Below are positions 21,060 through 45,254 of a stretch of 64,000 bases of DNA, in pieces. The notes beneath the pieces were generated by a model. The model saw nothing but the letters and a program-made list of their open reading frames with translations. It did not search any database and was not told where the DNA came from. Source of the DNA: Negativicutes bacterium (GTDB lineage: Bacteria > Bacillota > JAAYKD01); NCBI GenBank assembly GCA_021372785.1, contig JAJFTT010000011.1, positions 1 through 64,000 on the forward strand. Reading direction: 5' to 3'. Both the position numbers and the translations under genes were made by a program. Numbering within the stretch: the stretch's first letter is position 1; each line of letters opens with the position of its first letter.

Positions 21060-21251
21060 GAAACTATTACGCAATATAAAAAAAACTTATTTGTTTTTTT
21101 ATCTGTCGATAAACATAGAAAAGCGCTCCTCGTGTTTTTGCTTCACGCTCGACGATCCTAAAAAACAGATCGCAAGATGCCGTTCGGAGGAATCCAGGCA
21201 AAAATCAATTGCGGACCACGGATCATGCATCTTTGGAGGTGTTTCAACTTC

Positions 21252-23304: not shown

Positions 23305-23353
23305 AAAAAATCCCAGCTGTTGACAGTCTGACTGTCAACAGCTGGGATTTTTT
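23305..23353. terminator. Bidirectional terminator, 23-bp perfect arms
   Basis: Arms 23305-23327 and 23331-23353 are perfectly complementary around a CTG loop, with A6 and T6 at the outer edges. It ends both the sensor gene and, in the other direction, the SipW-2 gene. Confidence 0.9.
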
Positions 23354-23999
23354 ATTCTTTTGGCTGATCGTCCTTGTTACCCTGTTTTTCCGCCAGTTGC
23401 TGACGCATTTTTTCCAACTCGGCTTCCAATGCCTGAGTCTGCCGGTTCTTCTTACGGTTGAAAAGCATGCGGCGCAGAACATCATATAAAATAAACAATA
23501 CCAGCGGACAGGCGATAAAAATTACCATACCAATCGGTGTCTGCATAAAAATCGCGAAATTACCCAGTTTGGAGACATGCAGCAAATATTGCCCTTCCAC
23601 CATGCTCTCCAGGACCGGATTTCTGTCATTGACGTTGTTGTTATCCCCTTTGGTAGTAAATTTACGCCCGTCGGTGCTCTCGGTGATCTCGACGATTCTA
23701 TGGGTAATGACTGAATTCCCCTCGCGATAGGAAATGACATCGCCGACCTGCAGGGTATCAGTCGCTACTTCTTTCACCAGGACAAGATCTCCTGAGTAAA
23801 ACTCCGGTTCCATTGAGCCGGACAAAACAATGAACGGTTTATAACCGAGAAAGCTTGGTACTTCGTTGGGATAGACAAAGGATTTCACGATCAGCGTTGC
23901 ATTGATGATCAGAAGCGGTAATAATAGGATACAAAGCAGGATGCCGATCACCGTCACGGTTTTATCCCATGTTTTTTTGGTGTGATCCGTCGTGTTCAT
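23352..23999 (-). CDS. SipW-type (ER-type) signal peptidase I, copy 2
   Basis: 215 residues from the ATG at 23999; a longer frame upstream is not supported by any ribosome-binding site, and even this start has only a weak G-run. An N-terminal span (~14-37) is followed by the catalytic VLSGSMEPEF (Ser nucleophile), GDVISYR, VITHRIVEI where His replaces the Lys of ordinary bacterial peptidases, and TKGDNNNVND. A second span lies near 160-180, and the tail is highly charged and coiled-coil-like. SipW peptidases process TasA-type matrix proteins. It is immediately downstream of the giant repeat gene but has its own promoter. Confidence 0.9.
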   Translation of the reverse strand: MNTTDHTKKTWDKTVTVIGILLCILLLPLLIINATLIVKSFVYPNEVPSFLGYKPFIVLSGSMEPEFYSGDLVLVKEVATDTLQVGDVISYREGNSVITHRIVEITESTDGRKFTTKGDNNNVNDRNPVLESMVEGQYLLHVSKLGNFAIFMQTPIGMVIFIACPLVLFILYDVLRRMLFNRKKNRQTQALEAELEKMRQQLAEKQGNKDDQPKE

Positions 24000-24171
24000 C
24001 TCAAAACCCCCACTCAATTTTTTCCGGATTGGCATAGCGGAATCGTTCCTGCCGGACCAGCGTTGGCCGGATCCGGCGCAATCGATTCTGACCTGATTTG
24101 TAACCTTGACTCTGGATCTGTCTTGCAAAGGAACCGCTTACCGTTTCCTTTATCAACCAACCGATAATGTG

Positions 24172-30200: not shown

Positions 30201-33200
30201 TGCTGGTCAGGCTGCCTGTATAGAGGCCGGAACCCAGCACCGTAACCCGCAGATACTGATTGCAGTCTGCCGCTGTCAGCGTATAAGCCGCATTGGTCGC
30301 GCCGGCAATTGGTTCATACTCGCCCTCTGCTGCCGCAGAACGGTACCATTGATAGGTCACCGTCGCTTCGTAGGGAGTCAATTCGCCTGCAGTCAGCGTG
30401 CGGCCGACCTGGGCGCTGCCGCCGGTGGCTGCAAGGCTGATCAGCGCAACGCTGCTTTGCGTGACCTTATGCACGGTGGAGTCACTCGTCACGCTGCCGG
30501 TATAAACGCCCGTGCCGGTCGCAATCACTCTTAGGAAGAACTGACTGTCCGAACCGGTGATCTGATAGCTGCTCGCCGTAGCACCTGTAATATCCACATA
30601 GGCCCCGGTGGTGCCGCATCTCTGCCATTGGTAGGTCACCGAAGCGCCGAGCGGTGTGACTGTTCCGGCTGTCAGGATTTGTCCGATTACGGTGGTACCA
30701 ATTACATCGGAGATGGCGGTCAACGGCCCTTTCTGCACTTGCGCCGTAGCCGCGCTGGTAATCACGCCGGAGAAACCGGCGGAGCCTGTCGCGACTACCT
30801 TCAGATAAGCTTGATAATCGTCGGCTGTCAGCAGATAACTGCTGCCGGTGGCTCCACTGATCGCAAGATATTCGCCGTCTATCGTGGCGCATCTTTGCCA
30901 CTGATAAGTTGCGCTGGCGCCGGCTGGCGTCAGAACCCCCGCAGTCAGAAGGTTGGCTACCTGAGGCAGACCCCCGATTGCCGTGATACCGTTGAGAACT
31001 CTACCTTGCGTACTGACCGGTCCGATAGAGACACTGCTCAGCGTACCGGTGAAATTTCCTGAACCACTGACCGACAGACGCAGATATTGCAGATCATCCT
31101 CTGCCGTCAGCACATATTGATTTGTATTCGCCCCGGCAATATCACTGTAACTACCGTCAAAGGCCGTACTTCTTTGCCATTGATAAGTTACCGCAGCGTT
31201 AGCGGGCAGCAATTGATCCATTGTCAGAGTTTCACCGATGACCGGGTTGCCGCTGATTGAAACGCTGATCAGCGTTTCTTTTGCAGTAGCCGGAAAGACT
31301 GCCGTTACGCTGCCGCTATGAGCTGCGTTGGCAGCAACCGCTCCCGTCACCGTAAAGCTGTTATGCTTGACTTTCGCCAGACTATAGCCTGCTTTCGGCG
31401 TAACCTGAATGGTCGCAGTATAAACTGTATTGGCGGCAAAAGTAGATACTGCAGGAGACCAGACCAGGGAAAGCGTATATTCCGTTGTTTCGGCTAGACT
31501 CACCACCGGAACGGCTCCTTTCACCGGAGCAGTCACCCCATTAATGGTAAGCAGGCTGATATCCGTTGTTACCGCGTTTGTTTTGGCGCTGCGGGCAGGA
31601 TTTCCGATTTTTTTACCCCTGGTCGCCACCGGAGTGACTTCCACATCGATCTGTTTTTGCTGCAGTGCTGCTGTGATAACTAAGGTTCTTGCGGTAGCGC
31701 CGCTAATTGCCGTACGATTCGGATTTCCTGCCAGTATCAACATTTGTGAGCCATCACTGAGGTCACTGGCATACCATTGAATCTGGCTGTCGCCTTCCGG
31801 ATCGCCATTGAAATCCAGATAAGTATAATCTACGCTCAGCGTTTCGCCAACCATAGAGGTTCCTAAGATACTGACATTGAGCGCCAGCGGCGCCATTTCT
31901 TCCACCAGTACAGCCGGGGTCGGCAGACTTCTGCTGGCTGCGCCGGGTGTCGTGCCGCTTTGCGCTGCCGGCGTCACTTCAAAGCGAATGGTCTTACCGC
32001 TTTCCGCTATCGTCAGCAGATAAGTGAGGGAGGTCGCGCCGCTGATGGGAGTATCATCCGCATACCACTGGAAAGTACTCGTTGCCTCCGGATCGCTGTT
32101 GCTGTCGCTATAAGTATAGGAACCGGTCAGGGTTTGTCCAACCGAAGCGCTGCCGCTGATGCTGACATTGTTGGCCCGCGGGGCGTCCGCTGTCACCACC
32201 GCACAACCGGCAGTACTTCTGACTGCCGTACCGCTTAAAGTACCGCTGAGCGCGATGGGGGTTACTTCAAATTGAATCGTTTTGCCGAGCTCAGCCGCCG
32301 TGATCAGGTAGGTATTTGCCGTTGCGCCGCTGATCGCGGTATTGTCCGCCAGCCAGCGGTAAGTCGAAGTTCCCTGCAAATCGCCGTTCAGATCGCTGTA
32401 AGTATAATAGCCACTCATCGTCTGACCAACTTGCGCCGAACCGGTGCTGCCGACATTACCGGCGACCGGTGCAGCTTCCGCATAGACGACCGGTCCGACG
32501 GCAGCGCTGGTATAACTGCCGGAATAGGCACCGGAACCGGTCAGGCTAACCCGCAGATATTGACCAAGTTCGTTGGCGCTCAGCGCCAATGTGGCATTGG
32601 TTGCCCCGGCTAGATCCGTAAAGTCAGCCGCATTGCCGGTAGCGGAAATTTGCCATTGGTAAGCACCGGTGGCCGCCGCCGGGGTCAAGCCGCCCGCCGT
32701 TATCGTATTGCCCACAACGGCTGTGCCGCCGATCGGCGCCATGGCCGAAATCGGGAAAGCGGCGATGCGATCCGTAGAAGCGCTGATCACTGTCCCGGTA
32801 TAGGCACCGGACCCGATGGCGACAACGCGCAGATAGTAGTTGTATTCTACCACCGTGACAAGGAAGGTTGAAGCAGTGGCTCCGGCTAGATCGGTATAGG
32901 TCCCATTGACTGTGGTTGAAATCTGCCACTGATAGGTTACGGTGGCATTGGTCGGCTGTACAGCGGCTGTCAGAGTCTGTCCCGCCTGCGCCGTACCGTT
33001 GATTGCAACACTGGTCAGGGGAGTAGGAGTTTCTACGACTGGCCCGGTATAATTGCTGGTGACGGTGCCGGTATAGGAACCGGAACCGGTCGCTTTTACT
33101 TTGAAATAATAGCCATAGGTTTGAGTCAAAGGTATTGTATAGGTGTTGGCTGTCGCACCGGCAATATCGGTATAGCTGCCGGATATACTGCTGCTGACCT

Positions 33201-36200
33201 GCCACTGATAGGTCACAGTAGCCAGCAATGGCGTCACCGTGCCTGCGGTCAAAGTCACGTTGCGGGCAGTGGTATAAAGGATATCCGAAATGGCAGTAAT
33301 CGGCGTCGTTTGACTGAGTGCGATGACCGGCCCCTTAAAGCCCGAAATCACAATACCGGTATAAGCTCCGGTTCCCGTTGCGCTGACCTTGAGATAGTAA
33401 CCTAAATCCGTATTTTGGATGGTATAGGAAGCAGAAGTTGCAGCTGTGATCGTTTCATAAGTTCCATCGGAAGTCAGGCAGCGCAGCCATTGATAAGTAA
33501 CCGTGGCACCGTTCGGCGTCAGACTGCCTGCACTGACCAGCTGTGTTGGCGCTGTTGTACCAATGATCGACCCAATTGCAGTCAGCGGAGTCAGGGAGGT
33601 TTTTGCGCCGATGGCAACACTCACCTTTTCTAAACTGCCGCTGAAAGCGCCAGAACCTGTGACCACTAACTTAAGATAATAGCCTACTGTATTTGTCCCC
33701 TGACCGGAACCCAGTTTATTTTCCGGAACAACGATGGCTGCGGTCGTTGCTCCGATCAAATCCCAACCTTGTGGATTCGGACTATTGGAAAGATACCACT
33801 GATATGTCACGGTTGCGTTGGCAGGGGTAATTACTCCCGCAACGAACGCTTGCCCAATATTGCAGCTGCCGGTAAAATCTCCGAGCGCGGTGATAGGGCA
33901 GGCGGCAATGGCTCCTTTCACAGCAGCATTCTCCACACTGCCGGCATAAACACCGGAGCCGGTGGCGACGACTTTGATAAATTTACCATAATCAGCAGCT
34001 GTTAAAGTGTACTGCGAATTCGTTGCTCCGCTGATGTCGGTATAGTTCCCTCCGCTTGAATCCGCCCGCTTCCACTGATAGGTCACACTGGCATTAGTCG
34101 GTACGATAGCTCCCGCTGTCAGGGTTTGGTTAACAGTCGCTGTCCCTGTAATCGGTCCAATCGAGGTGAGCGATTGAAAGGTTGCACTGACCGGTCCGGC
34201 CGCAGAACTCGTCACTGTCCCGGTATAGCTGCCCGTGCCGGTTGCAATGACTTTCAAAGAACAATTCAAATCGGACGCTCCCAGGAGATAAGTTTTTTCG
34301 GTCGCGTTGGCGATATTGCTGAAGTTCAAACCGGAGGAATCGGAACGCTGCCACTGATAAGTGACCGTGGCATCAAGCGGTGTCAACGGTCCGGCTGTAA
34401 TGGTTTGTCCCGTAGCGACGGTGCCGCTGATGCTGCCGATAGCAGTCAGCGGTGCTGCCGCAATCAAAGCAGTCGGCGCGCTTTCTACCCAACCGGAAAA
34501 GGAACCGGCACCGGTGGCAATCACCTTAATATAAGCATGATAGTCACTGCTCGTTGTTGTATAGCTGCTGGCGGTTGCTCCGATAATTTCAGCATAGGTT
34601 TCCGCTCCGGCAACTTTGCGCAGCCATTGATAGGTGACCGCCGCGCCGTAAGGTGTGGTGGCACCGGCATGCAGGAGCTGACCGACCTGTGAAATCCCGG
34701 TGATGGCACTGATTGCGGTGATCTTAAAGGGGTAAGGTTCGATGCGACCGTAAGCGGCGCTGAGTAAACCGGCCGTCGGATTTGTCTCATAAGCTCCGGT
34801 GCCAACAATTAAAACTTTCAGATAACCATCATCATCCGCATCGACAATCGTATAGCTTCTGCCGGTGGCGCCGGCAATATTGCTATAATCTGTACCGTTT
34901 TTACTGGCGCGCTGCCACTGATAGGTGACCGTGGCATCAGCAGGCGTCAAGACACCCGCAACCACTGTCTCACCAACCGCCGGTGTACCGGTGATATTGC
35001 CGGCTGTGACCAGTTGCTTCAGGGTAATTGACGTACCGCTGGGATTGACCGAACCGCTGAAGGTGCCACTGCCGGTCGCGACCGGTCTGACATATTTACC
35101 AAAATCGGCTGCTGTCAAAACATAACTGCTGGCAACAGCACCGCTGATATTGGCATACGCACTGTCGGACGCTCCGGCAGAACGCTGCCACTGATAAGTC
35201 ACTGTTGCATTGCTTGGTGAAACGGCTCCTGCCGTTAAGGTTTGCCCTACTCTCGCCGTGCCACCGGTCGCTGCAATGCTGATCAGCGCCGTGGGAACCG
35301 TACCGCTGGGTGAAATCACAGCCGTCGGTAAACTGGTTACTGAACTCTCATACGATTGACTGCCGGTGACTAGAACCCGCAGATAACATGCTACATCCGC
35401 ATTTGTTAATAAGTAGGTGTTGGCTGTGGCATCCGTGATATTGGTGTAATTGCTGCCGGAGGTATCGCTTCGCTGCCATTGATAGGTGACAGTCGCTCCG
35501 AGAGGAGTCACTGCACCGGCAGTCAGCGTTTGACCGGAGATCGTTGAACCGCTAATGTTGGAGATTGCTGTGATCGAACCCTTGCTGATCAGATCGGTCG
35601 GCGTACTGATGACTTCGCCAAAATAGACACCAGTGCCTTCGGCAATTACTTTCAAATATTTCCCATAATCGGCAGTGGTTAGCGTATAGCTGCTGCTCGT
35701 CGCTCCGCTGATATTAGCGTAAGTACCGTCGGCTTCACTGGAATTTTGCCACTGATAGGAGACGGAAGCACCATACGGCAGCACGGTACCGGCTGTCAGC
35801 ACCTGACTGACTTTGGTTACGCCGGTAATGGCGCTGATCGAGCTGATGGCATTGGGGCTGCCGACCGGTCCTGTGTTGTTGCTGTACACCATACCGGAAT
35901 AACCGGAAATCCCGCTGACCGCTACCCGAATATAATAAGTGTTATCCGCTGTGACCAACGTATAGGTGCTGGCGGTTGCACCGCTGATGGCTGCATAACT
36001 GCCGTTGACATAACGCTGCCATTGGTAACTGACAGTCGCTCCGTAGGGTGTTACTGTACCGGCAGTTAGAATTTGATCTACTTCCGCCTTGCCGATGATA
36101 TTGGAAACAGCGGTGATCGGACACACCGCCACAGGGCCAAGGGCTGTGCTGCTGATGCCCTCGGCTGGCGTAGCATAGATACCGGCACCGTGAACAACCA

Positions 36201-39200
36201 ATTTGATGTACTGATTGAGATCACTTGGTGTCAGCGTGTAGGTTGCCGTTGTCGCTCCGCTGATGTTACTGTAAACTCCGTTGATTTCCGTGCAGCGCTG
36301 CCACTGATAGGTAACGGTCGCTCCCAAGGGTGTGGTCGTACCTGCGTTTAAAGTCTGGCCGACGCGGGCAATCCCGTCGATGGCGCTGAGTGCTGTAATT
36401 GGCGTTGCATTGGTTAATACCGGACCGGTGCGCAGACTAGTCAGAGTTCCACTGTAATAACCGAAGCCGGTCACGGTAACTTTGAGATATCGGTTTTCAT
36501 CGCCGGCAGTCAGGGTGTAGGTATTGGAGGTTGCGCCGGTAATGTCGCTGTAATTCTCACCGTTCAGATCGGATCTCTGCCACTGGTAATTGACTGTTGC
36601 GGCGGATGGTGTCAGATTGCCGGCGGTAATCACCTGCCCGATCGTCGCCGTACCGCTGATCGAACCGATCGCGCTGAGAGGGGCTGCCGTGATGGGACCG
36701 GCATAACGGCTCCAAACCGTACCGCTGTAGGAACCGGAGCCGGTTGCTTCCACTTTGAAAAAATAGCCTTTATCAATTCCTAAGATATTATAAGTTTTCG
36801 AAGTTGCACCATTCACCACAGCGTAAGTACCGCTTGCCGTATCGCAGCGATACCATTGATAGGTGACGGTAGCACCGTAAGGTGTGACTGTACCTGCTGT
36901 CAGCGACTGAAATACTTCCGTCAAACCAATGCTGTCTGCAATGGCAGTGATGGCGGTGATTCCGCCGGTATTGGCTTTCGGCACAATATAATTGCTGAGC
37001 ACTGTTCCGGTATAAGGCAAGATTCCGGTCACTGCCACTCGGATATAGATAGTGTTAGTCAAATTGTTATCCGCGGCGACTAAGGTATAGCTGGCTGAAG
37101 TTGCTCCTAGAATATCTGAATAAGTGCTGCCGCTGTTAGTGGATCTCTGCCATTGATAACTCACCGTGGCACCGGCAGGGGTTACCGTTCCTGCAGTCAC
37201 CGTGTAGGTGATCACCGTGGTACCGCTGATATTGGTGATCGAGATTAACGGACAGGCGGTGACTGAACCCACCGCACTGCTTTCCACGCTGGCAGCATAT
37301 GCGCCGGAGCCGGTCGCTTTGACGCGGAGATACTTGCCTAAATTTGCGGCGGTTACCGTATAGGAAGAAGCTGTGGCATAACTGAGATCCGTAAAGGGCC
37401 CGCTCAGGCTATCCGCTGTCTGCCATTGGTAAGTCACCGTCGCATTCGTCGGTGCCACAGCACCGGCGGTCAGCATCGAACCAACTTGAGCGGTTCCTGT
37501 AATCGCACCAATGGACGTGATATTCTGTGTGCTGGTCGCTACCAGACTGCTGCGGGGGCTGATGACTGTGCCGGTATAAGCACCATAACCGGTTGCCACG
37601 ACTTTTAAATAGCAGTTTAGGTCAGCATCACTCAAGGTATAACTGGCGGAAGTTGCACCGGCAAGATCTGTATAGATACTGCCGCTGAGATCGGATCTTT
37701 GCCATTGATAGGTAACCGTCGCCTCGGCCGGAGTCAGGGTGCCGGCGGTCAAAACCTGTCCGGATACCGTGGAACCACTAATCGCACCGATGGCGGTAAT
37801 CTGCTGCGCCGCCGTTTTAATCGGACCGATGCTGGCGCTGACTGTGCCGGAGAAGGTTCCCGAGCCGGTCGCCACCACGCGGTAAAATTGATTCAAGGCA
37901 GCCGCGGTTAAGTAATAGCTGCTATTGGTTGCTCCGCTGATGTTGGTATAGGTCCCATTGAGAGCAGTGCTTTGCTGCCACTGATAGGATGCTGTCGCTT
38001 CCGCTGGGGTCAAGGCGCCGGCGGTCAAGGTTTGACCAATATAAGGCGTGCCATTGATTGCAGCCATAGCGGTGATGGCCGTCGCCGCAAAGACAACCGG
38101 TCCGGAGCTGACGCTTTCCACACTGCCGCTATAACTGCCTGTGCCGCTGATTCTCACTTTGATATAGTGGTTCTTATCATCAAAAACCAAAGTATAGGTG
38201 GAAGAGGTGGCGCCAACAATCTCGCTGTATTCGCCGTCCGCACTGTCTGCACGCAGCCATTGATAACTGACGGTCGCTTCCGCCGGTGAGCAGGCTCCTG
38301 CGGTTAAGGTTTCATACTGACGGGTGGTGCCGCTGATTTCTCCGATACCGGTTAAGGGAATGCCGCTTACTTTGGCGCTGGGGCTGCTGTAAACCGTCGC
38401 GCTGTAATTGCCGCTGCCGCTGGCAGCGACTCTGAGGTAATTGTTCTTATCGGCAAGCACTAGGGTATAAGCAATGTCCGTTGCTTCGGCAATATCGGCA
38501 TAGCTGCCGTCAATCGTCTCGCAGCGCTGCCACTGATAGGTTGCCGTGGCGCCGGAAGGAATGAGGTCAACAGCCGTCAGCTGTTGGCCGATGATTGCGG
38601 TTCCGCTCAGATTGACACCGGTTAGATTTTCTTTGGCCGTTGCCGGGAAGATTGCCGTGATCAACCCGGAATTCGCTGCGTTGGCAGCGGTCGCACCCGC
38701 TACCGTAAAGAAATTCTCGGCGACACCGGCTAAGGTGTAGCCGGATTTTGGCGTGAGCGAGATCGTTGCCGTATAAACGGTATTCGCCTTAAAGGGAGAA
38801 TCCGCCGGTGACCAGGAAATGGCAGCAGTATACTGCTCGGTAGCCGTAACGCTTGCTGCCGGCAAGGCGCCTTTGACCGGAACGGTTACGCCTTCGATAG
38901 CAGGTAAGGAAATCGGCAGCAATGCTGTTATGGGGAAAACGGCCGTTACCACCCCGCTGTCGGCGGCATTGGTTGCGGCAGCACCCGCCACGGTAAAGAA
39001 GTTTTGCGCAACGCCGGTTAAGGTATAACCCGTTTTCGCCGTCAGTGTGATGGTCGCGGTATAGATCGTATCGGTCAGAAATTGGCTGTGCGCGGGGGAC
39101 CAGGTAATGCTTGCCGTATATTGCTCCGTAGCGCTTATGCCGGCGACCGGTGTCGCACCGATCACCGGCGGCGTCACGCCGGCAATCGCGGCCAGGTTAA

Positions 39201-39945
39201 TCACGGCAGGCGCCGTTCTGGGGAAGACCGCCGTCACTGCGCCGGAATTCGCGGCATGGGAGGCGGCGGCGCCGTCTACCGTGAAAAAATTCTCGGGCAC
39301 CCCATCCAGGGTATAGCCGCTATTTGGCGTAATGGTGATGGCAGCGGTATAGACGGTATATGCTTTGAAAGGAGAATCCGCGGGAGACCAGCTGATGCCG
39401 GCCGTATATTGCGCATTGGCGGTGACGGTGAGGTCGGGCACTTCCCCTCGGACCGGTACCGTGATCCCCGCAAGGGCGGCAATCGTGATGGGAGCCGCGC
39501 TGACCGGACCCACAGCAGCGCTGGTCAGTTGGCCGCTGTAACCGTCGCCGCCGGTGACCGTCACTTTGATAAAGCGGCCGTATTCGGCAGCCGACAGCGT
39601 GCAGGAGGCGGCAGTGGCGCCGCTGATTGCGGTATAGCTGCCGTCAATGGCGGCACTACTGAACCACTGATAGGTGGCGTCGGCCATCGCATCAGCGGGA
39701 GTCAGCGCGCCGGCTGTCAGTAATTGCCCCACTTGCGCCGTGCCTTCTATCGGCGCCATTGCCGTTAACGGAAATTGCTGCGCGGAAGTAAGCGAAATCG
39801 TGTAAGTTTTTGGTTCCAGTACATATTTAGAAAGCGACAGCCGAGCTGCCGCCGGTGAAAGGAAAAATGTCAATACAATCAGAGCACAGAGAAGCAAGAT
39901 CCGCTTTGGCGCCGAACCCGTTCTCATCCGCTTTGGTTTTTTCAA
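24253..39945 (-). CDS. Giant exported repeat protein, 5230 aa, 55 modules (putative matrix adhesin)
   Basis: Start TTG at 39945 with AAAGGGG upstream. Residues 1-35 form a signal peptide (KRILLLCALIVLTFFLSPAAA), followed by SLSKY like the neighbouring TasA-like proteins. The rest is repeats. There are 43 A modules (~93 aa; VGQTLTAG, TYQWQR, ISGAT, YLRVVATGSG). There are 5 B modules (~95 aa; QYTA, GYTLxGV, NFFTV, VTAVFP). There are 7 C modules (~97 aa; YSDVNGD, RWYADDT, ISGAT, FEVTP). Order: A-B3, then A22-C3-B, then A20-C4-B. A and C resemble bacterial Ig-like domains. No sortase tail, SLH domain, membrane anchor or enzyme is present, so retention at the surface must use another contact. Role as a fibre-associated adhesin is inferred from context. 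Confidence 0.9.
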   Translation of the reverse strand: MKKPKRMRTGSAPKRILLLCALIVLTFFLSPAAARLSLSKYVLEPKTYTISLTSAQQFPLTAMAPIEGTAQVGQLLTAGALTPADAMADATYQWFSSAAIDGSYTAISGATAASCTLSAAEYGRFIKVTVTGGDGYSGQLTSAAVGPVSAAPITIAALAGITVPVRGEVPDLTVTANAQYTAGISWSPADSPFKAYTVYTAAITITPNSGYTLDGVPENFFTVDGAAASHAANSGAVTAVFPRTAPAVINLAAIAGVTPPVIGATPVAGISATEQYTASITWSPAHSQFLTDTIYTATITLTAKTGYTLTGVAQNFFTVAGAAATNAADSGVVTAVFPITALLPISLPAIEGVTVPVKGALPAASVTATEQYTAAISWSPADSPFKANTVYTATISLTPKSGYTLAGVAENFFTVAGATAANAANSGLITAIFPATAKENLTGVNLSGTAIIGQQLTAVDLIPSGATATYQWQRCETIDGSYADIAEATDIAYTLVLADKNNYLRVAASGSGNYSATVYSSPSAKVSGIPLTGIGEISGTTRQYETLTAGACSPAEATVSYQWLRADSADGEYSEIVGATSSTYTLVFDDKNHYIKVRISGTGSYSGSVESVSSGPVVFAATAITAMAAINGTPYIGQTLTAGALTPAEATASYQWQQSTALNGTYTNISGATNSSYYLTAAALNQFYRVVATGSGTFSGTVSASIGPIKTAAQQITAIGAISGSTVSGQVLTAGTLTPAEATVTYQWQRSDLSGSIYTDLAGATSASYTLSDADLNCYLKVVATGYGAYTGTVISPRSSLVATSTQNITSIGAITGTAQVGSMLTAGAVAPTNATVTYQWQTADSLSGPFTDLSYATASSYTVTAANLGKYLRVKATGSGAYAASVESSAVGSVTACPLISITNISGTTVITYTVTAGTVTPAGATVSYQWQRSTNSGSTYSDILGATSASYTLVAADNNLTNTIYIRVAVTGILPYTGTVLSNYIVPKANTGGITAITAIADSIGLTEVFQSLTAGTVTPYGATVTYQWYRCDTASGTYAVVNGATSKTYNILGIDKGYFFKVEATGSGSYSGTVWSRYAGPITAAPLSAIGSISGTATIGQVITAGNLTPSAATVNYQWQRSDLNGENYSDITGATSNTYTLTAGDENRYLKVTVTGFGYYSGTLTSLRTGPVLTNATPITALSAIDGIARVGQTLNAGTTTPLGATVTYQWQRCTEINGVYSNISGATTATYTLTPSDLNQYIKLVVHGAGIYATPAEGISSTALGPVAVCPITAVSNIIGKAEVDQILTAGTVTPYGATVSYQWQRYVNGSYAAISGATASTYTLVTADNTYYIRVAVSGISGYSGMVYSNNTGPVGSPNAISSISAITGVTKVSQVLTAGTVLPYGASVSYQWQNSSEADGTYANISGATSSSYTLTTADYGKYLKVIAEGTGVYFGEVISTPTDLISKGSITAISNISGSTISGQTLTAGAVTPLGATVTYQWQRSDTSGSNYTNITDATANTYLLTNADVACYLRVLVTGSQSYESSVTSLPTAVISPSGTVPTALISIAATGGTARVGQTLTAGAVSPSNATVTYQWQRSAGASDSAYANISGAVASSYVLTAADFGKYVRPVATGSGTFSGSVNPSGTSITLKQLVTAGNITGTPAVGETVVAGVLTPADATVTYQWQRASKNGTDYSNIAGATGRSYTIVDADDDGYLKVLIVGTGAYETNPTAGLLSAAYGRIEPYPFKITAISAITGISQVGQLLHAGATTPYGAAVTYQWLRKVAGAETYAEIIGATASSYTTTSSDYHAYIKVIATGAGSFSGWVESAPTALIAAAPLTAIGSISGTVATGQTITAGPLTPLDATVTYQWQRSDSSGLNFSNIANATEKTYLLGASDLNCSLKVIATGTGSYTGTVTSSAAGPVSATFQSLTSIGPITGTATVNQTLTAGAIVPTNASVTYQWKRADSSGGNYTDISGATNSQYTLTAADYGKFIKVVATGSGVYAGSVENAAVKGAIAACPITALGDFTGSCNIGQAFVAGVITPANATVTYQWYLSNSPNPQGWDLIGATTAAIVVPENKLGSGQGTNTVGYYLKLVVTGSGAFSGSLEKVSVAIGAKTSLTPLTAIGSIIGTTAPTQLVSAGSLTPNGATVTYQWLRCLTSDGTYETITAATSASYTIQNTDLGYYLKVSATGTGAYTGIVISGFKGPVIALSQTTPITAISDILYTTARNVTLTAGTVTPLLATVTYQWQVSSSISGSYTDIAGATANTYTIPLTQTYGYYFKVKATGSGSYTGTVTSNYTGPVVETPTPLTSVAINGTAQAGQTLTAAVQPTNATVTYQWQISTTVNGTYTDLAGATASTFLVTVVEYNYYLRVVAIGSGAYTGTVISASTDRIAAFPISAMAPIGGTAVVGNTITAGGLTPAAATGAYQWQISATGNAADFTDLAGATNATLALSANELGQYLRVSLTGSGAYSGSYTSAAVGPVVYAEAAPVAGNVGSTGSAQVGQTMSGYYTYSDLNGDLQGTSTYRWLADNTAISGATANTYLITAAELGKTIQFEVTPIALSGTLSGTAVRSTAGCAVVTADAPRANNVSISGSASVGQTLTGSYTYSDSNSDPEATSTFQWYADDTPISGATSLTYLLTIAESGKTIRFEVTPAAQSGTTPGAASRSLPTPAVLVEEMAPLALNVSILGTSMVGETLSVDYTYLDFNGDPEGDSQIQWYASDLSDGSQMLILAGNPNRTAISGATARTLVITAALQQKQIDVEVTPVATRGKKIGNPARSAKTNAVTTDISLLTINGVTAPVKGAVPVVSLAETTEYTLSLVWSPAVSTFAANTVYTATIQVTPKAGYSLAKVKHNSFTVTGAVAANAAHSGSVTAVFPATAKETLISVSISGNPVIGETLTMDQLLPANAAVTYQWQRSTAFDGSYSDIAGANTNQYVLTAEDDLQYLRLSVSGSGNFTGTLSSVSIGPVSTQGRVLNGITAIGGLPQVANLLTAGVLTPAGASATYQWQRCATIDGEYLAISGATGSSYLLTADDYQAYLKVVATGSAGFSGVITSAATAQVQKGPLTAISDVIGTTVIGQILTAGTVTPLGASVTYQWQRCGTTGAYVDITGATASSYQITGSDSQFFLRVIATGTGVYTGSVTSDSTVHKVTQSSVALISLAATGGSAQVGRTLTAGELTPYEATVTYQWYRSAAAEGEYEPIAGATNAAYTLTAADCNQYLRVTVLGSGLYTGSLTSIAVGPATTGVVSAIAAIKGTTMIGQTLSAGALTPFEASVTYQWQKCRTAGGSYTDISGATSATYTITAADFNYYLRVVATGYGSYTAAATSAPTAGRVGSAHTPISKIGAIVGLAQVGNTISAGALTPAAATATYQWLRCSTEEGSYEPIAGATGSTYRLTAADYNCYMKVTAVGSGSYSGSVTSAVSALTAACPITSISDIIGTTTAGETLTAGTVTPLGATVTYQWQTSDATDETRFIDIAGATAQNFIVLAEYNYRYLRVLVTGSGAYSGTIASAQTTSRVVGTVLATLSGMDPIVGTAKVGNTLTAGNLSPTGTDATYQWQKCTVADGTYENIPGAADNSYRLTAADYPYYLRVVATASGSYIGKVVSAVAGPVEAGTITALGPIGGMAAIGQTVSVGTIEPGGATVTYQWQISPMADGVYTDLTGETFAHYTISEADYNSYLKVTVTGSGSYSGSISSAPSSKISNASFALTALEAIHGTAAVAQQLTAGAVSPAGATVTYQWQKCLTPDGQYEDIVGATKSYYLLTASEYGYYIRLAVNGSGNYGGSLSSLATGLVQKAAVTAIADLIGSTKIGLTLTAGELTPGGATADYQWQRSDTGNGLTYSDIPGATAINYTMTGEDSYRYLRVIATGKGAYSGTVISESTVARVSAGELTPLQSIAAISGSAVVGQTLTAGGLTPHGTATYQWQRCATADGSFENISGASKTTYVLTAADLNYFFKVVATGSGVYTGSVISSATAGVTACPITGIGATAGSLAVGQALTAGTAQPATANLTYQWQRSAAVGGAYLNIDGAQQNTYVLQAEDAGYYLKVVITGVNGYTGSITSAYCGPVGLTLTPITAITAINGTAQVGSVLTAGSLTPGNATVTYQWQRAAEANGTYDDIPGATAKNYTLQVEDYAKYIRVRATGSGSYAETVTSAATGQVLACPLTAISDLIGTTRQGQTLTAGSVSPLGATVTYEWQVTRTPGSGTPAVISGATAATYYIADLRYSQNYIRVVATGTGAYTGSVASAYSVSIITGGTATALSSIAATSGGAQVGSLLTAGVLSPSGATATYQWQKCETENGVYANIPGAAGKTYRLSAADYNYYLKVVATGSGSYSGVKTSEAVGPVSLAPVTAIGPIRGSTIKGETLTAGSITPLAATVNYQWQSSNASNGSFTDIAGETQESYTMQESDLNRYLRVMVSGTGSYFGSVYSVATGPVVNSAIPITAFGPISGTVQVGQLLTAGSVTPNGASVTYQWQRANSAGGSYSDIAGATAASYMLTADDYNKFLVVKVSGAGVYNGTQISAETAAVASCPITAISPIIGSTTEGQTLTAGTVLPLGATVTYQWQACQTPDSGPIDLINGAIANTYVVNLQYSWSFLRVVVTGSGAYSGTIESAYTTGRVTSAPATAISAMAAIQGTAQVGSQLTAGNLTPAAATATYQWQRGTASTGNFEDILGATDKNYTPTETDDSSYLRVIITGSGSYSGVKTSEAVGPVRAAEEAPFVSSVAISGTAQVGQTLTGNYTYSDVNGDLEGSSIFRWYADDTEIPGATELTYVLTVSELGKAIRFEVTPIAASGITSGTAVQSAATANVVAAETAPSVSLVSISGLLQVGKTLTGSYIYSDVNGDPEGSSIFRWFADDTEISGATERTYVLSANELGKAVRFEVTPVAASGILAGSAVLSEATAAVAETAAEAAPTADAVGISGTAQVGQTLTGNYTYSDVNGDLEGSSIFRWFADDTEISGATERTYVLSANELGKAIQFEVTPMAATGTSSGLAAISTATAAVLPAEAAPQATNVTISGMAQFGQTLTGNYSYSDVNGDLEGSSIFRWYADGVLITGAEAKTYLVTAAVIGAVLKFEVTPIAATGITAGSAVESAATAAVTAKPIDLTVISGITPPVKNAAPDLMVDATSQYTATIVWNPSPGDKFKKNIVYTAVISLTAAEGYTTIGIPDNYFSIAGAVTVTNSADSGTVSAIFPKTGND
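24540..25710 (-). repeat. Four near-identical C modules (291-297 bp tandem repeat)
   Basis: The phrase GAAAATAGAACTACCTTCG recurs (once with a G for the A) at 24721, 25012, 25309 and 25600, i.e. at 291, 297 and 291 bp, with long identical DNA stretches around it. These are the most recently duplicated or homogenised modules of the protein. Confidence 0.85.
25600..30730 (-). repeat. Higher-order 1.1-kb tandem repeat (4 A modules) within the giant gene
   Basis: In the second A block every fourth module begins with a TAISDxIGTT-like sequence with TPLGATVTYQW; these recur near 30.70, 29.60, 28.49, 27.38 and 26.26 kb, a spacing close to 1.11 kb. The modules in between also match best at a distance of four. 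Unequal crossing-over of a four-module unit is the simplest explanation. Confidence 0.7.
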
Positions 39946-40016: not shown

Positions 40017-41114
40017 CTAATCGACCCGGTCCACAATGCGTGCCACAAATAAGTCTGCAATGGTCGGATCAAATTGGCTGCCGGAAAATTTCTTGATTTC
40101 TGCAATGGCAGACCGCTTGTTCATCGCCTTGCGGTACGACCGGTTATTGGTCATGGCATCATAGGCATCCAGAATCGATACGATGCGGGCGAGCAGCGGT
40201 ATTTCCGTTGCTTTCAGACCAAGCGGATAGCCTTTTCCGTTCCAGAATTCGTGATGACAAAGAATGTCATAAGCGATCGGTTTCAGCTCTTCATAAGAGA
40301 GCGCCATGCGATAACCAATTTCGGTATGCTCGTGAATCACCTTATTTTCAGCTGCCGAGAGGGCAAACGGTTTGGTTAAAACGGAATCGCTGATAATAAA
40401 TTTCCCGATATCATGCACAATGGAAAGTAATTCCAAATTGTTCATCTGATGATTTGATAAATGCATTTCAGTCCCGATTGCGCGCGCATACTTGATCAGG
40501 CGCAGGGAGTGTTCTTCCGTTTCCCGGCTTTTTTCATGCATGACCGTGGCAATGAAATGGATTAAAGAAGTACACTGTTCCCGATTCTGCAGCAGCTTAT
40601 GCTGATTCATGTTTTCTATTGCGGTTTTGATGATCGTTTCCAGCGCTTCCTGCGGTTTGCTCTTGGTGGCGCAGCCGCAGGACAGGGTGATGACGACCGT
40701 TCCGTCGCCGATATTGCTTTGAAAGGTACTGAAACGATGAATAATTTGCGTTAGAATACGGTCGGCTTCCAGATCATTGGTCTCTGGTAAAAGAATGCTG
40801 AAACTTTTACCGACAATAGCTGCCAAAACACCCGCTTTGCGGCAGCAGTCTTTCAGTATTTCCACCGAGCGGATCATCAGCCTGTCTTCTTCATCGCAGC
40901 CCAAGGAAGCGGCGTCAAAGCCAGGACCATTGATTTCACCGATGATCAAGGAAAAAGGCAGCCGGTTCTCATCATCCAGCTTCTTCATTTCCTGCCTTAA
41001 GTAATTATGGCGATATAAACCCGTTCTGGGATCGCGATTGTTAAAATATCCGGCATCAATCCCCGGCCCGGTCGCCTGATCCCACGGATAATTCTCATCC
41101 ATCGTTCCATTCAT
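40017..41114 (-). CDS. Cytosolic degenerate-GGDEF + HD-GYP protein (probable c-di-GMP phosphodiesterase)
   Basis: 365 residues, ATG with AAAGGGGGGAG upstream, no membrane spans. Residues ~25-170 form a GGDEF-like domain (DPRTGLYRHNYL, SLIIGEING), but the signature is VGKSFSILLP where active enzymes have GGDEF, so cyclase activity should be lost. Residues ~180-365 form an HD-GYP domain with the key motifs HDIGKF, HEHTEIGY, CHHEFWNGKGYP and DAYDAMT intact. It most likely hydrolyses c-di-GMP, perhaps tuned by GTP binding to the dead GGDEF. It lies inside the matrix gene run, 71 bases upstream of the giant gene, which fits local feedback on the signal that opens the operon. Confidence 0.9.
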   Translation of the reverse strand: MNGTMDENYPWDQATGPGIDAGYFNNRDPRTGLYRHNYLRQEMKKLDDENRLPFSLIIGEINGPGFDAASLGCDEEDRLMIRSVEILKDCCRKAGVLAAIVGKSFSILLPETNDLEADRILTQIIHRFSTFQSNIGDGTVVITLSCGCATKSKPQEALETIIKTAIENMNQHKLLQNREQCTSLIHFIATVMHEKSRETEEHSLRLIKYARAIGTEMHLSNHQMNNLELLSIVHDIGKFIISDSVLTKPFALSAAENKVIHEHTEIGYRMALSYEELKPIAYDILCHHEFWNGKGYPLGLKATEIPLLARIVSILDAYDAMTNNRSYRKAMNKRSAIAEIKKFSGSQFDPTIADLFVARIVDRVD

Positions 41115-41184: not shown

Positions 41185-41727
41185 TTAGGTCAAACTGTCT
41201 ACCTGCTCTGCTTCAATCTTGATCTGCAGTGTCTGCTGCTTGTCGAGATAAGCGGAGCCGGCATCGGTCTCATCCCAGGTGATGGTCAGCGTATAGCTGT
41301 GCGTAATCTGTCCGCCAAACCCCAGATAAACATAGCCATCGCCGGCAGAATCATAAGTCGCAGCGGGTTCCAGCGTATACGAAAAGGGTAAGTTCGGCAA
41401 AACCGGATTCCATTCAACCGTGACTCTATATTTCAATAAAACCTGATTCAGGTTGCTGTTTTCAAAATTAACGATGTCAAAATGATAAACCAAAATATCG
41501 CCGGGCAAGAGGTCGCCGACATGCAAACCGCTGCCTATCTCTAAAATCTCAGTTCCGTTGAGCTCTGCGCTCTGCGGCAGATAGCTGAGGACAGGTTTCG
41601 CGACCGAAACCGTGTCCGTTCCCTCTCCGGTGGTACTGAATTTGGAAAGAGAAACGGCGGCAACCACGACGGTCACCATCAGCAAATAAAGAAGATAGAC
41701 GACATAGCTTTTTTTCATTTTCATCAC
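41185..41727 (-). CDS. TasA/camelysin-like secreted subunit, minor
   Basis: 180 residues from a GTG at 41727 (an ATG follows as the next codon). Residues 7-25 are a hydrophobic signal ending VSLSKF, then STTGEGTDTVSVA. The mature part is beta-rich with LLPGDILVYHFDIVNF and a C-terminal strand set (SYTLTITWDETD, LQIKIEAEQV) typical of the jelly-roll of SipW-processed matrix proteins. GTG overlaps the upstream SipW-1 stop by 4 nt, so peptidase and substrate are translationally coupled. Similar subunits co-polymerise into extracellular fibres; that role is inferred from family and context. Confidence 0.8.
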   Translation of the reverse strand: MMKMKKSYVVYLLYLLMVTVVVAAVSLSKFSTTGEGTDTVSVAKPVLSYLPQSAELNGTEILEIGSGLHVGDLLPGDILVYHFDIVNFENSNLNQVLLKYRVTVEWNPVLPNLPFSYTLEPAATYDSAGDGYVYLGFGGQITHSYTLTITWDETDAGSAYLDKQQTLQIKIEAEQVDSLT

Positions 41728-42260
41728 TGCTTTGGTTTATTTTTATACTCCCGGATGGCGTCTGCCGCATAGGGTACCGCAAACAAGAGGATCGCCAGCA
41801 ACGCCGTCAGATAAATGCCCTGTTTCGTTTTGAGAAAATAGATCAGCTTACCCAAACCGGACAAGCGCAGCACGACTTTCCCTTCCACTTGCGACAAAGC
41901 AATGGCCGGATCCGCCACATTATTGGCATCGCCTTTGGTCACCAACTGATCCCCCTGCACAGAAAGAAGACGGTGCGTCACTAAGCTCGCACCGGAACGG
42001 TAAGTGATCACATCGTTCACGGCATACTCTGCCTGCTGATGAATGATCAAAAGATCGCCGACCTGGATTTCCGGCAGCATGCTGCCGGAAACCACGACGA
42101 CCTGGGCATAACCGAAAATCTTCGGCAATTCGTTTTTTTGAAAAAACTGTGCGCTGATTACATAAAGATTAAACAGAATGATCAGACTCAAAAAAACAAG
42201 GAACAGATTGCGTAGGACAATTTTCCAACCCGGTAATTTCAGCGCTGTCCTTGTTTTCAT
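41724..42260 (-). CDS. SipW-type (ER-type) signal peptidase I, copy 1
   Basis: 178 residues from the ATG at 42260, which overlaps the upstream stop as ATGA. One N-terminal span (~15-37) precedes VVSGSMLPEIQVGD with the nucleophilic Ser, VITYRSG, LVTHRLLSV with the catalytic His, and TKGDANNVADPA; a second span lies near residue 145-165. Replacement of the catalytic Lys by His defines the SipW/ER type, whose known substrates are TasA-like proteins. Tight coupling on both sides to TasA-like genes supports a dedicated function. It is clearly a diverged paralogue of the peptidase at 23352-23999. Confidence 0.93.
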   Translation of the reverse strand: MKTRTALKLPGWKIVLRNLFLVFLSLIILFNLYVISAQFFQKNELPKIFGYAQVVVVSGSMLPEIQVGDLLIIHQQAEYAVNDVITYRSGASLVTHRLLSVQGDQLVTKGDANNVADPAIALSQVEGKVVLRLSGLGKLIYFLKTKQGIYLTALLAILLFAVPYAADAIREYKNKPKQ

Positions 42261-43609
42261 TGAAAGGTACCTCCAATCAAAATATCCAGAATATAGAGAG
42301 GATTCCCCTGCTGCATCCCGATTGTGGTGTCGATGCTGTCGGAGGTATCCTGCCACTGCCATTCCAATGTGTAAAAAGTCTCACTTTTGGCAGCCAGCGT
42401 CAGATTGAGCAGGCTGACATCCTCTGCCGATTTCCAGTCGTAATACTGATTTGTGCCTCTCGGGATCACACCTTGCGACAGGCGGTAACGCATCGGCAGC
42501 CTGGGAAAATTCTGATCCTCTTCCCGGAGCCGGATCTGGAAAACAACGGCAAAGTTCTCCGGGTTTTTGATCTTAAAGATATATCTGCCGGTGGCGCCGG
42601 GCGCAATCACGGTTTGCCCGCCGATTTTGCTGACGCCGGTATTGCCGTCGCGCGGCGCAAAAATATCGACGGCGGTGGCCTGCTGCCAGACCCGGGCGGG
42701 GGCAATGGTATCCGTGACAATCAGGTTGGGAGCCCTGTTTGGGGTTTGCGCAGCCGGCAGACCGGGATCAGCCGGCAGCACAGGGGTGGTCGGGTTGGTT
42801 GGCGTGGATGGCTCCGCCGGAATCACCGGGTCCGGCTTGCCCGGCACCGTTGGCGTCAGCGGCCCTTCCGGCGGCAACGGCTCGCCCGGGTTGGTGGGAT
42901 TCGTCGGATTGGTCGGATTCGTCGGATTGGTCGGATTGGTGGGATTCGTCGGGGTGCTGCTGCCGCCGTCCTGCGGGCTGAGATCACCCGGCAGGATTGG
43001 ATGAACGGACAAATCGGGCTGACCCGCTTCGCTTGGCAGCACCGTATCCGGATCCAGAACAATCGTCTCCTGCTCCCCTTCGCCTTTTAATTCCACCACC
43101 AGGTTGATGACCGTGACTTCCAAAGGAATCTTGATCAGATAATGGCCATTGCCAAGCCGGATGGTTTGTTTGATTCTTAAGGAATTGACGCCGGTAAAGG
43201 TGACCGTGCTGGAGGCAAGCCGCCTGCTTCCCTCAATGACGCTGATCGTATGCTGCCCTTCGCTGACACGTAAGAATTCAAAGTTGCCGTTCGCATCGGT
43301 AACGGTATAGCGCACATCGCTTCTCAGTTCGACGATACCGTTGCGATACGGCCTGCCGTCGGTATACATAACCGTGCCCGAAATGTCAAACTGGTATAAG
43401 GTGACCGGCTGTGCTTCGCCGCTCTGTCCGCTTTCACCCAAGTCGAGCTCAATCGTATCCACGATGCGCCCGGTGAAATCATCCAGATTTGCCTGCTTGC
43501 CAATCAAGTAGCCGATATAGCTGAAAGAAAGGGAGAGCAGCAGCAACAACAAAAGCAGCAGCCACCATAAACGCCGGAGTGTGGTCTGCTTTTCCTGCGT
43601 TTCCGTCAT
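42257..43609 (-). CDS. Membrane-anchored TasA-like multidomain protein with PTN linker
   Basis: About 450 residues. After TLRR comes a span (WWLLLLLLLLLSLSFSYIGYLIG) without an obvious cleavage site. Residues ~70-175 contain a carboxypeptidase-regulatory-like beta-sandwich (TDGRPYRNGIVELRS, YTVTDANGNFEFLRV). A Pro/Thr/Asn linker includes seven PTN repeats, and the C-terminal ~140 residues are a TasA/camelysin-like jelly roll (APGATGRYIFKIKN, YTLEWQWQDTSDSIDTTIG). It may tether fibres to the cell. The start is uncertain: the ATG at 43609 has no ribosome-binding site, whereas GGAGGAGG at about 43651-43659 would suit a CTG at 43642. Confidence 0.75.
   Translation of the reverse strand: MTETQEKQTTLRRLWWLLLLLLLLLSLSFSYIGYLIGKQANLDDFTGRIVDTIELDLGESGQSGEAQPVTLYQFDISGTVMYTDGRPYRNGIVELRSDVRYTVTDANGNFEFLRVSEGQHTISVIEGSRRLASSTVTFTGVNSLRIKQTIRLGNGHYLIKIPLEVTVINLVVELKGEGEQETIVLDPDTVLPSEAGQPDLSVHPILPGDLSPQDGGSSTPTNPTNPTNPTNPTNPTNPTNPGEPLPPEGPLTPTVPGKPDPVIPAEPSTPTNPTTPVLPADPGLPAAQTPNRAPNLIVTDTIAPARVWQQATAVDIFAPRDGNTGVSKIGGQTVIAPGATGRYIFKIKNPENFAVVFQIRLREEDQNFPRLPMRYRLSQGVIPRGTNQYYDWKSAEDVSLLNLTLAAKSETFYTLEWQWQDTSDSIDTTIGMQQGNPLYILDILIGGTFQ
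42890..42952 (-). repeat. PTN tripeptide-coding tandem repeat
   Basis: A 9-bp unit reading Pro-Thr-Asn is repeated seven times with slight variation in the linker of the anchored TasA-like protein. Length changes in units of 9 bp would keep the frame. Confidence 0.8.
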
Positions 43610-43680
43610 TTTTATTGTCGTTTCATGATTCGACTGAGCCAGGCAGATCACCTCCTCCGCAGTTTTTAATTTCGGCAGCA

Positions 43681-43727
43681 AGAAAGAAAACCCCCGGCAA
43701 AGCTGGTCTTATTCACCTTTGCCGGGG
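43681..43727 (-). terminator. Internal terminator after the first TasA-like gene
   Basis: On the minus strand CCCCGGCAAAG and CTTTGCCGGGG form an 11-bp stem with a 14-nt loop, followed by GTTTTCTTTCTT. It lies between the 222-aa subunit gene and the downstream export genes and should let only part of the transcripts through. Confidence 0.88.
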
Positions 43728-43790: not shown

Positions 43791-44459
43791 TTACGGGTTA
43801 ACGTTAAGTTGAGTCACTGTAACTTCAATCGACAGAGTTATTTCTGGAGTCCCATCTATACCAAGAGCTGTATCAATAGCGTCAGATTGTTGAACTGCTG
43901 CACCAACAGCCTCGAAGTCCCATGTCCAATGTAATATTTGGGTAGATGTCCCATCCGTATCTTCAAGGGAAGCGATCGCAAGAGCAGTACTTAAGTTAGC
44001 TAAAGTCTTATAGCTCGCAGGAGTTACAGCATCGTATACTCCAGTTAAAACGGCAGAATATCTTTGTGTATTTGCACCTATAGTATAATATACAGGTACA
44101 AAATCTGTATTAGTTTCAGAAATTACAAAATCTGCTTTTACATCAACTTCGCCAGTGTTGTTTACTTCAATTGGAACTTCTCCGGTTGTTCCCGGAGCAA
44201 TCACTTCATTTGCTGCGCCATCACCGATGATACCAGTGTCCTCCGCCATGGTGAAAATATCAAATGTATCAGTTGCAGTCGCAGTATCGAGTAACCCAGC
44301 GTCAGTATCGTTGACATCAAATTCGAATAAAGCTACCCGAATCGTATCAGTTGCAGTTACTTCCTTCGTATACTTGGCATACGTTCCAGAGACGAGCGGC
44401 AGGGTTACGAGCGTTAGAACCATGACCAGGACGCTCAGTTTTAAGAAAAGTTTTTTCAT
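43791..44459 (-). CDS. TasA/camelysin-like secreted subunit, probable major fibre protein
   Basis: 222 residues, AAGGAG 9 nt before the ATG. The signal (KLFLKLSVLVMVLTLVTLPLVSG) ends in TYAKY, followed by TKEVTATDTIRVALFEFDVND; this compares well with the -TYA.F- cleavage zone of SipW-dependent proteins. The mature part is acidic and beta-rich, includes APGTTGEVPIEVNNTGEVDV, and ends with HWTWDFEA, DAIDTALG and a final beta strand, the same C-terminal signature as the anchored protein downstream. As first gene after the riboswitch leader and just before an internal terminator, it should be the most abundant product. Codon use is more AT-rich than its neighbours. Confidence 0.85.
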   Translation of the reverse strand: MKKLFLKLSVLVMVLTLVTLPLVSGTYAKYTKEVTATDTIRVALFEFDVNDTDAGLLDTATATDTFDIFTMAEDTGIIGDGAANEVIAPGTTGEVPIEVNNTGEVDVKADFVISETNTDFVPVYYTIGANTQRYSAVLTGVYDAVTPASYKTLANLSTALAIASLEDTDGTSTQILHWTWDFEAVGAAVQQSDAIDTALGIDGTPEITLSIEVTVTQLNVNP

Positions 44460-44646: not shown

Positions 44647-44846
44647 TTAGTAAGGATCAATAAAAACGAGCATCTCTCCGCTTGACTCGGGCACCGCCGG
44701 GTCCAACTCACATTCATCTGAGCCCCCTTTGTTCTGAATTTTCGTTCCCTGTTCTTCTGTCATTTCAAGAATTCTATGAGTAATAACCGATTGGCCACCC
44801 TAGAAGAGATCAAATCTCCAACCTCGAGGTCAGTGGTTAGAACTTC
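44647..44846 (-). pseudogene. Remnant of a third SipW-type signal peptidase
   Basis: One frame gives EVLTTDLEVGDLIS; the next frame continues with a stop and then GGQSVITHRILEMTEEQG, TKIQNKGG and DPAVPESS, ending TAA at 44647-44649. These match the region from VKEVATDTLQVGDVIS through VITHRIVEI to the TKGD motif of the intact SipW-2 protein. The Ser motif and N-terminal span are missing (the sequence breaks off just below the riboswitch terminator), and KGD has become KGG, so it is dead. It forms part of the leader of the TasA-like gene. Confidence 0.82.
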
Positions 44847-44870
44847 CCTGATTCAAATGCGATGACCGAT

Positions 44871-44908
44871 AAAAAAAGTCCGGCCGCAACGAAAACTTGC
44901 GGTCGGAC
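44871..44908 (-). terminator. Terminator of riboswitch unit 1, overlapping its aptamer
   Basis: Minus-strand arms GTCCGACCGCAA (44897-44908) and TTGCGGCCGGAC (44878-44889) with one A-C mismatch, followed by seven T. The left arm contains TCCGAC, which the aptamer also needs. Confidence 0.88.
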
Positions 44909-44980
44909 GGTCATCACATCGTAATGTTTTAGACTCCTGACTTTGCGTCCTAACCTTTCGGTTAGTTTGCCCGGGAACAC
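44902..44980 (-). promoter_or_regulatory. c-di-GMP-I (GEMM) riboswitch, unit 1 (promoter-proximal to the gene)
   Basis: Minus-strand order: GGGCAAAC, hairpin CTAACC-GAAA-GGTTAG, GGACGCAAAG, GTCAGGA, GTCTAAAAC, small hairpin, GATGAC, TCCGAC. This is the GEMM-I core with GNRA tetraloop helix and TCTAAA receptor-side strand. The 109-bp segment 44864-44972 repeats at 45076-45184; the tetraloop helix differs by a compensated pair (ACC/GGT versus ATC/GAT). Flanking P1 pairing is not evident in this copy, so it may be weaker than unit 2. Confidence 0.82.
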
Positions 44981-45018
44981 CGATTCATTTTGTAAATGCT
45001 CTGATTTGCTGAGGTTGC

Positions 45019-45045
45019 AATATACCCTATGGCAAGAATTGTCAA
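45019..45045 (-). promoter_or_regulatory. Possible second promoter, before riboswitch unit 1
   Basis: Minus-strand TTGACA (45040-45045) and TATATT (45019-45024) with a short 15-nt spacer. Its distance to the aptamer (about 45 nt) is like that of the upstream promoter to unit 2, suggesting that a promoter-switch unit was duplicated. Confidence 0.45.
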
Positions 45046-45082
45046 TTGCAATGCTCAATTTTTCGCTGGATCCACGACCGAT

Positions 45083-45120
45083 AAAAAAAGTCCGGCCGCA
45101 AATAAAGCTTGCGGTCGGAC
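45083..45120 (-). terminator. Terminator of riboswitch unit 2, overlapping its aptamer
   Basis: Minus-strand arms GTCCGACCGCAA (45109-45120) and TTGCGGCCGGAC (45090-45101), loop GCTTTAT, then seven T. It has the same single A-C mismatch as unit 1. Confidence 0.9.
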
Positions 45121-45195
45121 GGTCATCACATCGTAATGTTTTAGACTCCTGACTTTGCGTCCTAATCTTTCGATTAGTTTGCCCTGAAGTTTGAT
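45114..45195 (-). promoter_or_regulatory. c-di-GMP-I (GEMM) riboswitch, unit 2 (first transcribed)
   Basis: Minus-strand GGGCAAAC, CTAATC-GAAA-GATTAG, GGACGCAAAG, GTCAGGAGTCTAAAAC, ACAT-TACG-ATGT hairpin, GATGAC, TCCGAC. In the folded aptamer GTC(A)GGA pairs with TCCGAC (45114-45119), which is also the left arm of the terminator; P1 may be AAACTT with AAG(C)TTT. Binding of c-di-GMP should therefore prevent the terminator and turn transcription on. Location upstream of matrix genes agrees. Confidence 0.87.
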
Positions 45196-45225
45196 TCAAT
45201 TGGATCACTCTTGCTTACTGACCAC

Positions 45226-45254
45226 ATCTTATAACAGTAAAGACCTCTTGTCAA
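45226..45254 (-). promoter_or_regulatory. Promoter of the matrix locus
   Basis: Minus-strand TTGACA (45249-45254), 17-nt spacer, TAAGAT (45226-45231). It starts the leader with the two tandem riboswitches. The 100 or so bases between here and mscL hold a GACCGG/CCGGTC hairpin without a T run and nothing else I can name. Confidence 0.75.

Follow-up and report, generated by a model that had tools for sequence, protein, structure and literature searches.

A probable promoter-riboswitch-terminator duplication predicted to switch on a SipW/TasA-type exported-protein operon at high c-di-GMP in a Negativicutes bacterium

Introduction

The triple-tandem c-di-GMP-I riboswitch Bc3-5 of Bacillus thuringiensis, which controls cspABCDE, has been tested experimentally: according to the available portion of its report, c-di-GMP raises reporter expression, tandem control is more digital, and in each unit the binding-site C and nucleotides of P1 and P3 are proposed to be withheld from the terminator (PMC4759541). 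The pilM riboswitch of Geobacter metallireducens was shown to be an ON switch whose terminator sequesters the ligand-pairing C (PMC9262584). Additionally, a catalog of tandem c-di-GMP-I riboswitches gives, in the sections available, 347 doublets and 12 triplets (PMC9481103).

Here we describe a tandem pair found in a 64,000-nt stretch of contig JAJFTT010000011.1 from a Negativicutes bacterium (the window). We consider it highly probable that a duplicated cassette of promoter, riboswitch and terminator controls in this bacterium an operon for SipW/TasA-type exported proteins, turning it on at high c-di-GMP. Like Bc3-5, as described in the accessible part of that report, the locus consists of complete tandem aptamer-terminator units in which the terminator captures the 3′ strand of P3 together with the ligand-contacting C. 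It differs in having two units rather than three, in not serving cspABCDE and in a promoter-like sequence between the units, none being described between those of Bc3-5 in that part. With pilM it shares the ON design and a terminator that takes the ligand-pairing C of the aptamer, but pilM is a single unit, has cGAMP as its ligand and serves other genes. As in the catalogued doublets, the leader holds two complete c-di-GMP-I riboswitches; that source, in the sections available, is a catalog only, and we did not find in it a link to sipW/tasA-like operons.

The switch mechanism is already established, for a single unit by pilM and for tandem units by Bc3-5 as far as the available text of that report goes, and the pair in the window is a good but unremarkable instance of it. 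What the locus adds is a probable duplication of the promoter, a recurring link to sipW/tasA-like genes, a decayed copy of sipW and a possible feedback through an HD-GYP protein. A search of the literature gave no relevant report that connects c-di-GMP riboswitches with TasA/SipW or camelysin.

Two complete aptamer-terminator units

A segment of 109 nt occurs twice in the window as a direct repeat (44864-44972 and 45076-45184, 95 % identity), and the two complete units are spaced by 212 nt. A covariance search with the Rfam model RF01051 (gathering threshold 35 bits) identified a c-di-GMP-I (GEMM-I) aptamer on the minus strand of each, at 45107..45193 in the upstream unit 1 (70.8 bits, E 7e-12) and at 44895..44981 in the gene-proximal unit 2 (65.7 bits, E 1.3e-10). 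Both match the model over its full length (positions 1-87 of 87) and are its only matches in this genome, which also contains 15 GGDEF domain matches. The duplicated segment and the GEMM-I identity, claimed in an original prediction made from the letters of the DNA, were borne out by these results, and every core motif that it quoted is present in both copies. Its compensated base pair is real as well: the GAAA-capped helix reads CUAAUC-GAAA-GAUUAG in one copy and CUAACC-GAAA-GGUUAG in the other, a change from U-A to C-G. At sequence level, the identification of tandem c-di-GMP-I aptamer-terminator units is confirmed.

At position 11 of the Rfam model, which we take to be G20 in Vc2 numbering, both units carry a G, as c-di-GMP sensors do, whereas cGAMP sensors have an A. 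Position G20 of Vc2 is described as a selectivity position, G against the A of cGAMP sensors (PMC9262584; PMC9481103, in the sections available). No third, degenerate aptamer was detected in the leader (Rfam at E up to 1; alignment scores below those of shuffles), and an exact-pattern scan of viral contigs gave no match. The c-di-GMP-II search of the genome also gave no match, a weak result given that the control genomes gave none either.

Each aptamer runs into an intrinsic terminator on the minus strand, at 45083..45120 in unit 1 (stem 45120-45090, U-tract 45089-45083; ΔG -18.1 kcal/mol, z -5.1) and at 44871..44908 in unit 2 (stem 44908-44878, U-tract 44877-44871; ΔG -18.2 kcal/mol, z -5.2). 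In both units, none of 200 shuffles was equally stable and seven U residues come directly after the hairpin. The sequence GUCCGACCGC is, in both, at once the terminator left arm and the 3′ strand of the aptamer, ligand-pairing C included. The left arm GUCCGACCGCAA starts within the aptamer, where UCCGAC supplies the 3′ side of the P3 base; the claim that TCCGAC is shared by aptamer and terminator therefore holds. The next conserved C after UCCGAC lies inside the terminator stem and, like the GAAA tetraloop (GNRA), is invariant in an alignment of 31 aptamers. This ligand-pairing C, matched here by alignment position, corresponds to C75 in pilM and C87 in Cd1 (PMC9262584).

When the growing transcript was folded, the P3 base was lost once the right arm GCGGCCGGAC had been made. 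Without ligand, the terminator state was favored by 6.7 kcal/mol in unit 1 and by 4.2 kcal/mol in unit 2, values from equilibrium folding, which ignores transcription speed and tertiary contacts. A gap of this size should be within the range of nanomolar ligand binding.

The overlap of aptamer and terminator recurs in a sister genus of the same family (MAG AS10tlH2TH_376; genome G001, loci L043 and L044/L095), which has five GEMM-I units before sipW/tasA-like genes; in every one of them the aptamer 3′ strand contains the start of the terminator stem. The overlap does not follow automatically from the aptamer 3′ end, because of 17 GEMM-I elements taken from other genomes in the phylum and having a clear terminator, 15 have it apart from the aptamer and two have it overlapping. 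The single A-C mismatch of the stem, to which the original prediction had drawn attention, is indeed kept in both copies of the window, but the five sister units show that it is not fixed: one has A-C there, two have A-U and two have G-C. The C-G pair two steps further is U-A or U-G in other units. The sister units thus resemble those of the window in the overlap and in the kind of genes downstream, but they are mostly single and spread along the locus, with one doublet at a spacing of ca. 620 nt. This doublet (L044 2231-1471, minus strand) is situated between two tasA-like genes; of its two units, the second has a good promoter match, and the first has none and could attenuate transcription that reads through from the preceding gene.

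The probable downstream operon and its leader

The genes that follow unit 2 lie on the same strand (minus) with short gaps and probably form one operon; of the gaps that were scanned, none contained a strong terminator. The first of them, 400 nt from terminator 2 (43791..44459), encodes a TasA/BsaA-like protein of 222 aa with a SipW-type signal peptide, whose homologs in the sister genus lie beside sipW. Its TasA-like identity is weak at sequence level, with no Pfam match and 17.1 bits to TIGR04090 against a cut-off of 60. Next come a membrane-anchored protein of 474 aa with a CarboxypepD_reg-like domain (42257..43681, start uncertain; PF13620, E 8.6e-7, just below cut-off), which resembles the product of a sister-genus gene following a GEMM-I unit (L043 9057-10439), and a SipW-type signal peptidase (41724..42362, start uncertain) that scores 73.8 bits with TIGR02228 (cut-off 51.85) and falls below the cut-off of the Bacillus SipW equivalog NF046067. 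Another small exported protein (41185..41727, 180 aa) matches no family and is considered TasA-like from its position and aligned N-terminus.

The following gene (40017..41114) codes for a protein of 365 aa with a degenerate GGDEF and an HD-GYP domain (PF13487, 107.5 bits), which aligns to the solved HD-GYP protein 4mcw with an E of 8.8e-30. The HD and GYP motifs are kept (HHEFWNGKGYP) and the GGDEF position reads VGKSF; from its sequence, it is likely a c-di-GMP phosphodiesterase. Since it is encoded within the operon, its product would lower c-di-GMP and a negative feedback loop would be expected. The operon continues with an open reading frame for a giant repetitive protein of 5230 aa, putatively at the surface (24253..39945), followed by a second intact sipW gene (23352..24128; TIGR02228, 113.7 bits at 23942-23478). 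The 5230-aa product contains many diverged repeats of the form GxxQVGQTLTAG...YQWQ... Convergent to the far end of the operon there is a gene for a GGDEF and HD-GYP protein of 699 aa (21177-23276, plus strand), with both motifs intact (AGGDEF and HHENWDGSGYP).

The original prediction had these as matrix genes. A matrix function is plausible from the SipW context, with intact SipW genes and SipW-type exported proteins following the switches, but the score of the TasA-like protein exceeds the cut-off of no curated family. It is possible, if rather doubtful, that the regulated genes encode instead other SipW-dependent proteins of the surface or the spore, which would agree with the lack of a curated TasA/camelysin match above cut-off and with an AlphaFold model of the first protein that is unusable (mean pLDDT 43). 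Nevertheless, the two intact sipW genes and the SipW-type signal peptides, the weak match to the BsaA family (TIGR04090), the giant putative surface protein and control by c-di-GMP all fit a role in matrix or adhesion, and we keep matrix genes as the plausible reading.

The leader also contains a decayed, frameshifted fragment of sipW (44710..44847, minus strand), which the original prediction did not mention. Its DNA aligns to the intact sipW at 24128-23352 with a score of 71 (maximum 45 for shuffles and 48 for other pieces of the window), tblastn finds it in two frames (E 6e-7 and 7e-6), and its profile match reaches 11.2 bits versus 4.3 for the best unrelated control; it gave no match to curated families. 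One GEMM-I unit of the sister genus directly precedes sipW, which is followed by a tasA-like gene. This order and the decayed sipW of the leader, taken together, point to switch, sipW, tasA as the probable ancestral arrangement.

Promoter-like sequences and the contribution of the gene-proximal unit

Unit 1 is preceded by a promoter-like sequence (45226..45254, minus strand), a consensus match in which TTGACA (45254-45249) is followed by TATAAG after a spacer of 15 nt or by TAAGAT after one of 17 nt. Unit 2 has one of its own (45019..45045, minus strand; TTGACA at 45045-45040, a 15-nt spacer and TATATT at 45024-45019), again a consensus match and absent from the original prediction. The distance from TTGACA to the aptamer core is 72 nt in unit 1 and 75 nt in unit 2, and in both the best -10-like hexamer is found at 15 nt (TATAAG and TATATT, respectively). 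With spacers of 15-19 nt allowed, the sequence before unit 2 matches 11 of the 12 consensus letters, a score that 0.1 % of shuffled versions of the intervening 94 nt attain; with spacers of 16-18 nt the best match is 9/12, reached by 19 % of shuffles. A 15-nt spacer is poor, being unfavorable for sigma-70-type promoters. Four of the five sister units, including the second one of the doublet, have their own promoter match (TTGACA or TTGACT, 17 nt, TACAAT or TATAAT). These sequences are most likely explained by a joint duplication of promoter, switch and terminator, the promoter of unit 2 being weak or degraded.

This bears on the idea, also in the original prediction, that two switches in series give a steeper response. 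Transcripts from the upstream promoter would pass both switches, and for these the idea would hold; those starting at the promoter-like sequence before unit 2 would pass the second only, and the series may thus account for just part of the output. If that promoter is active, the output would be P1 x f1 x f2 + P2 x f2 (P for promoters, f for switches), with a partial gain in steepness. The near-identical units, possibly with separate promoters, would allow a direct test of what tandem switches add.

In the equilibrium fold of the ligand-free aptamer, which leaves tertiary contacts out of account, the P3 base has a probability of ca. 0.06 in unit 2 versus ca. 0.75 in unit 1, because in unit 2 the core CGGGC can pair with GUCCG. 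Unit 2 also lacks P1, and the earlier guess that the gene-proximal copy binds ligand less well is consistent with both features. It is conceivable, but in our opinion unlikely, that a single unit works, either because the gene-proximal copy is weak or dead and amounts to a roughly constant terminator, or because transcription from the second promoter skips the upstream unit. The poorly preformed aptamer of unit 2, its alternative GGGC-GUCCG pairing, its Rfam score 5 bits below that of unit 1 and the promoter-like sequence between the units would agree with this; however, the 109 nt stay 95 % identical, with a compensated pair, though the upstream flanks have diverged, pointing to selection or gene conversion acting on both copies, and a regular P1 is not required for binding by known GEMM-I aptamers (Cd1, PMC9262584).

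Predicted direction of the switch

In each unit, the nascent RNA would fold the GEMM-I aptamer first. With c-di-GMP bound, P3 and the ligand-pairing C would be locked and GUCCGACCGC would not be free, such that no terminator would form and the polymerase would read on; without ligand, GUCCGACCGC would pair with the arriving GCGGCCGGAC and transcription would stop. Because the left arm is the aptamer 3′ strand with its ligand-pairing C, ligand binding and termination should exclude each other, and a terminator made of the aptamer's own strand predicts that the operon is ON at high c-di-GMP. Good support for this logic, which agrees with the original prediction, comes from the strand common to aptamer and terminator, from the persistence of this overlap in the sister genus, from the folding and from the two published precedents, pilM and Bc3-5; the response to the ligand is what these would predict. 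An OFF switch, in which the bound aptamer favors termination through an antiterminator as in Cd1 of C. difficile, is very improbable, since that design needs a terminator apart from the aptamer, as is common among GEMM-I switches (the 15 of 17 above), whereas both terminators here use the aptamer 3′ strand and the ligand-pairing C and cannot coexist with the bound aptamer, and no antiterminator was found in the computed folds.

Distribution in other genomes

In other genomes, 80 sipW loci were examined, of which four have a GEMM-I element at the head of, or within, a sipW-tasA cluster: L055, with a doublet, L065, L089 and L095, the latter from the sister genus. A fifth match, in L046, precedes an unrelated gene. 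GEMM-I doublets with a spacing of 159-204 nt are also present elsewhere in the phylum, in at least five genomes (G005, G017, G019, G026 and G046).

We propose, only tentatively, that c-di-GMP directly controls the SipW/TasA-type matrix operons of this lineage, with two promoters, two switches and feedback by the HD-GYP protein. If true, this would be a matrix circuit based on RNA of a kind that the literature found does not describe. The predicted switches in the window would in themselves link c-di-GMP, through nothing but RNA, to a predicted Gram-positive matrix operon, a connection for which the literature searched contained no report.

Two of the sipW loci have inverted repeats between a tyrosine-recombinase-like gene and the GEMM-I aptamer heading the sipW-tasA operon: L065, from Clostridium citroniae, with a perfect repeat of 21 bp (6091-6111 / 6296-6316), and L089, from Gordonibacter, with one of 27 bp and 96 % identity (6047-6073 / 6374-6400). 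From their sequence, these look like invertible promoters ahead of a c-di-GMP riboswitch, comparable to the cmr switch of C. difficile (PMC8844915) but differently arranged.
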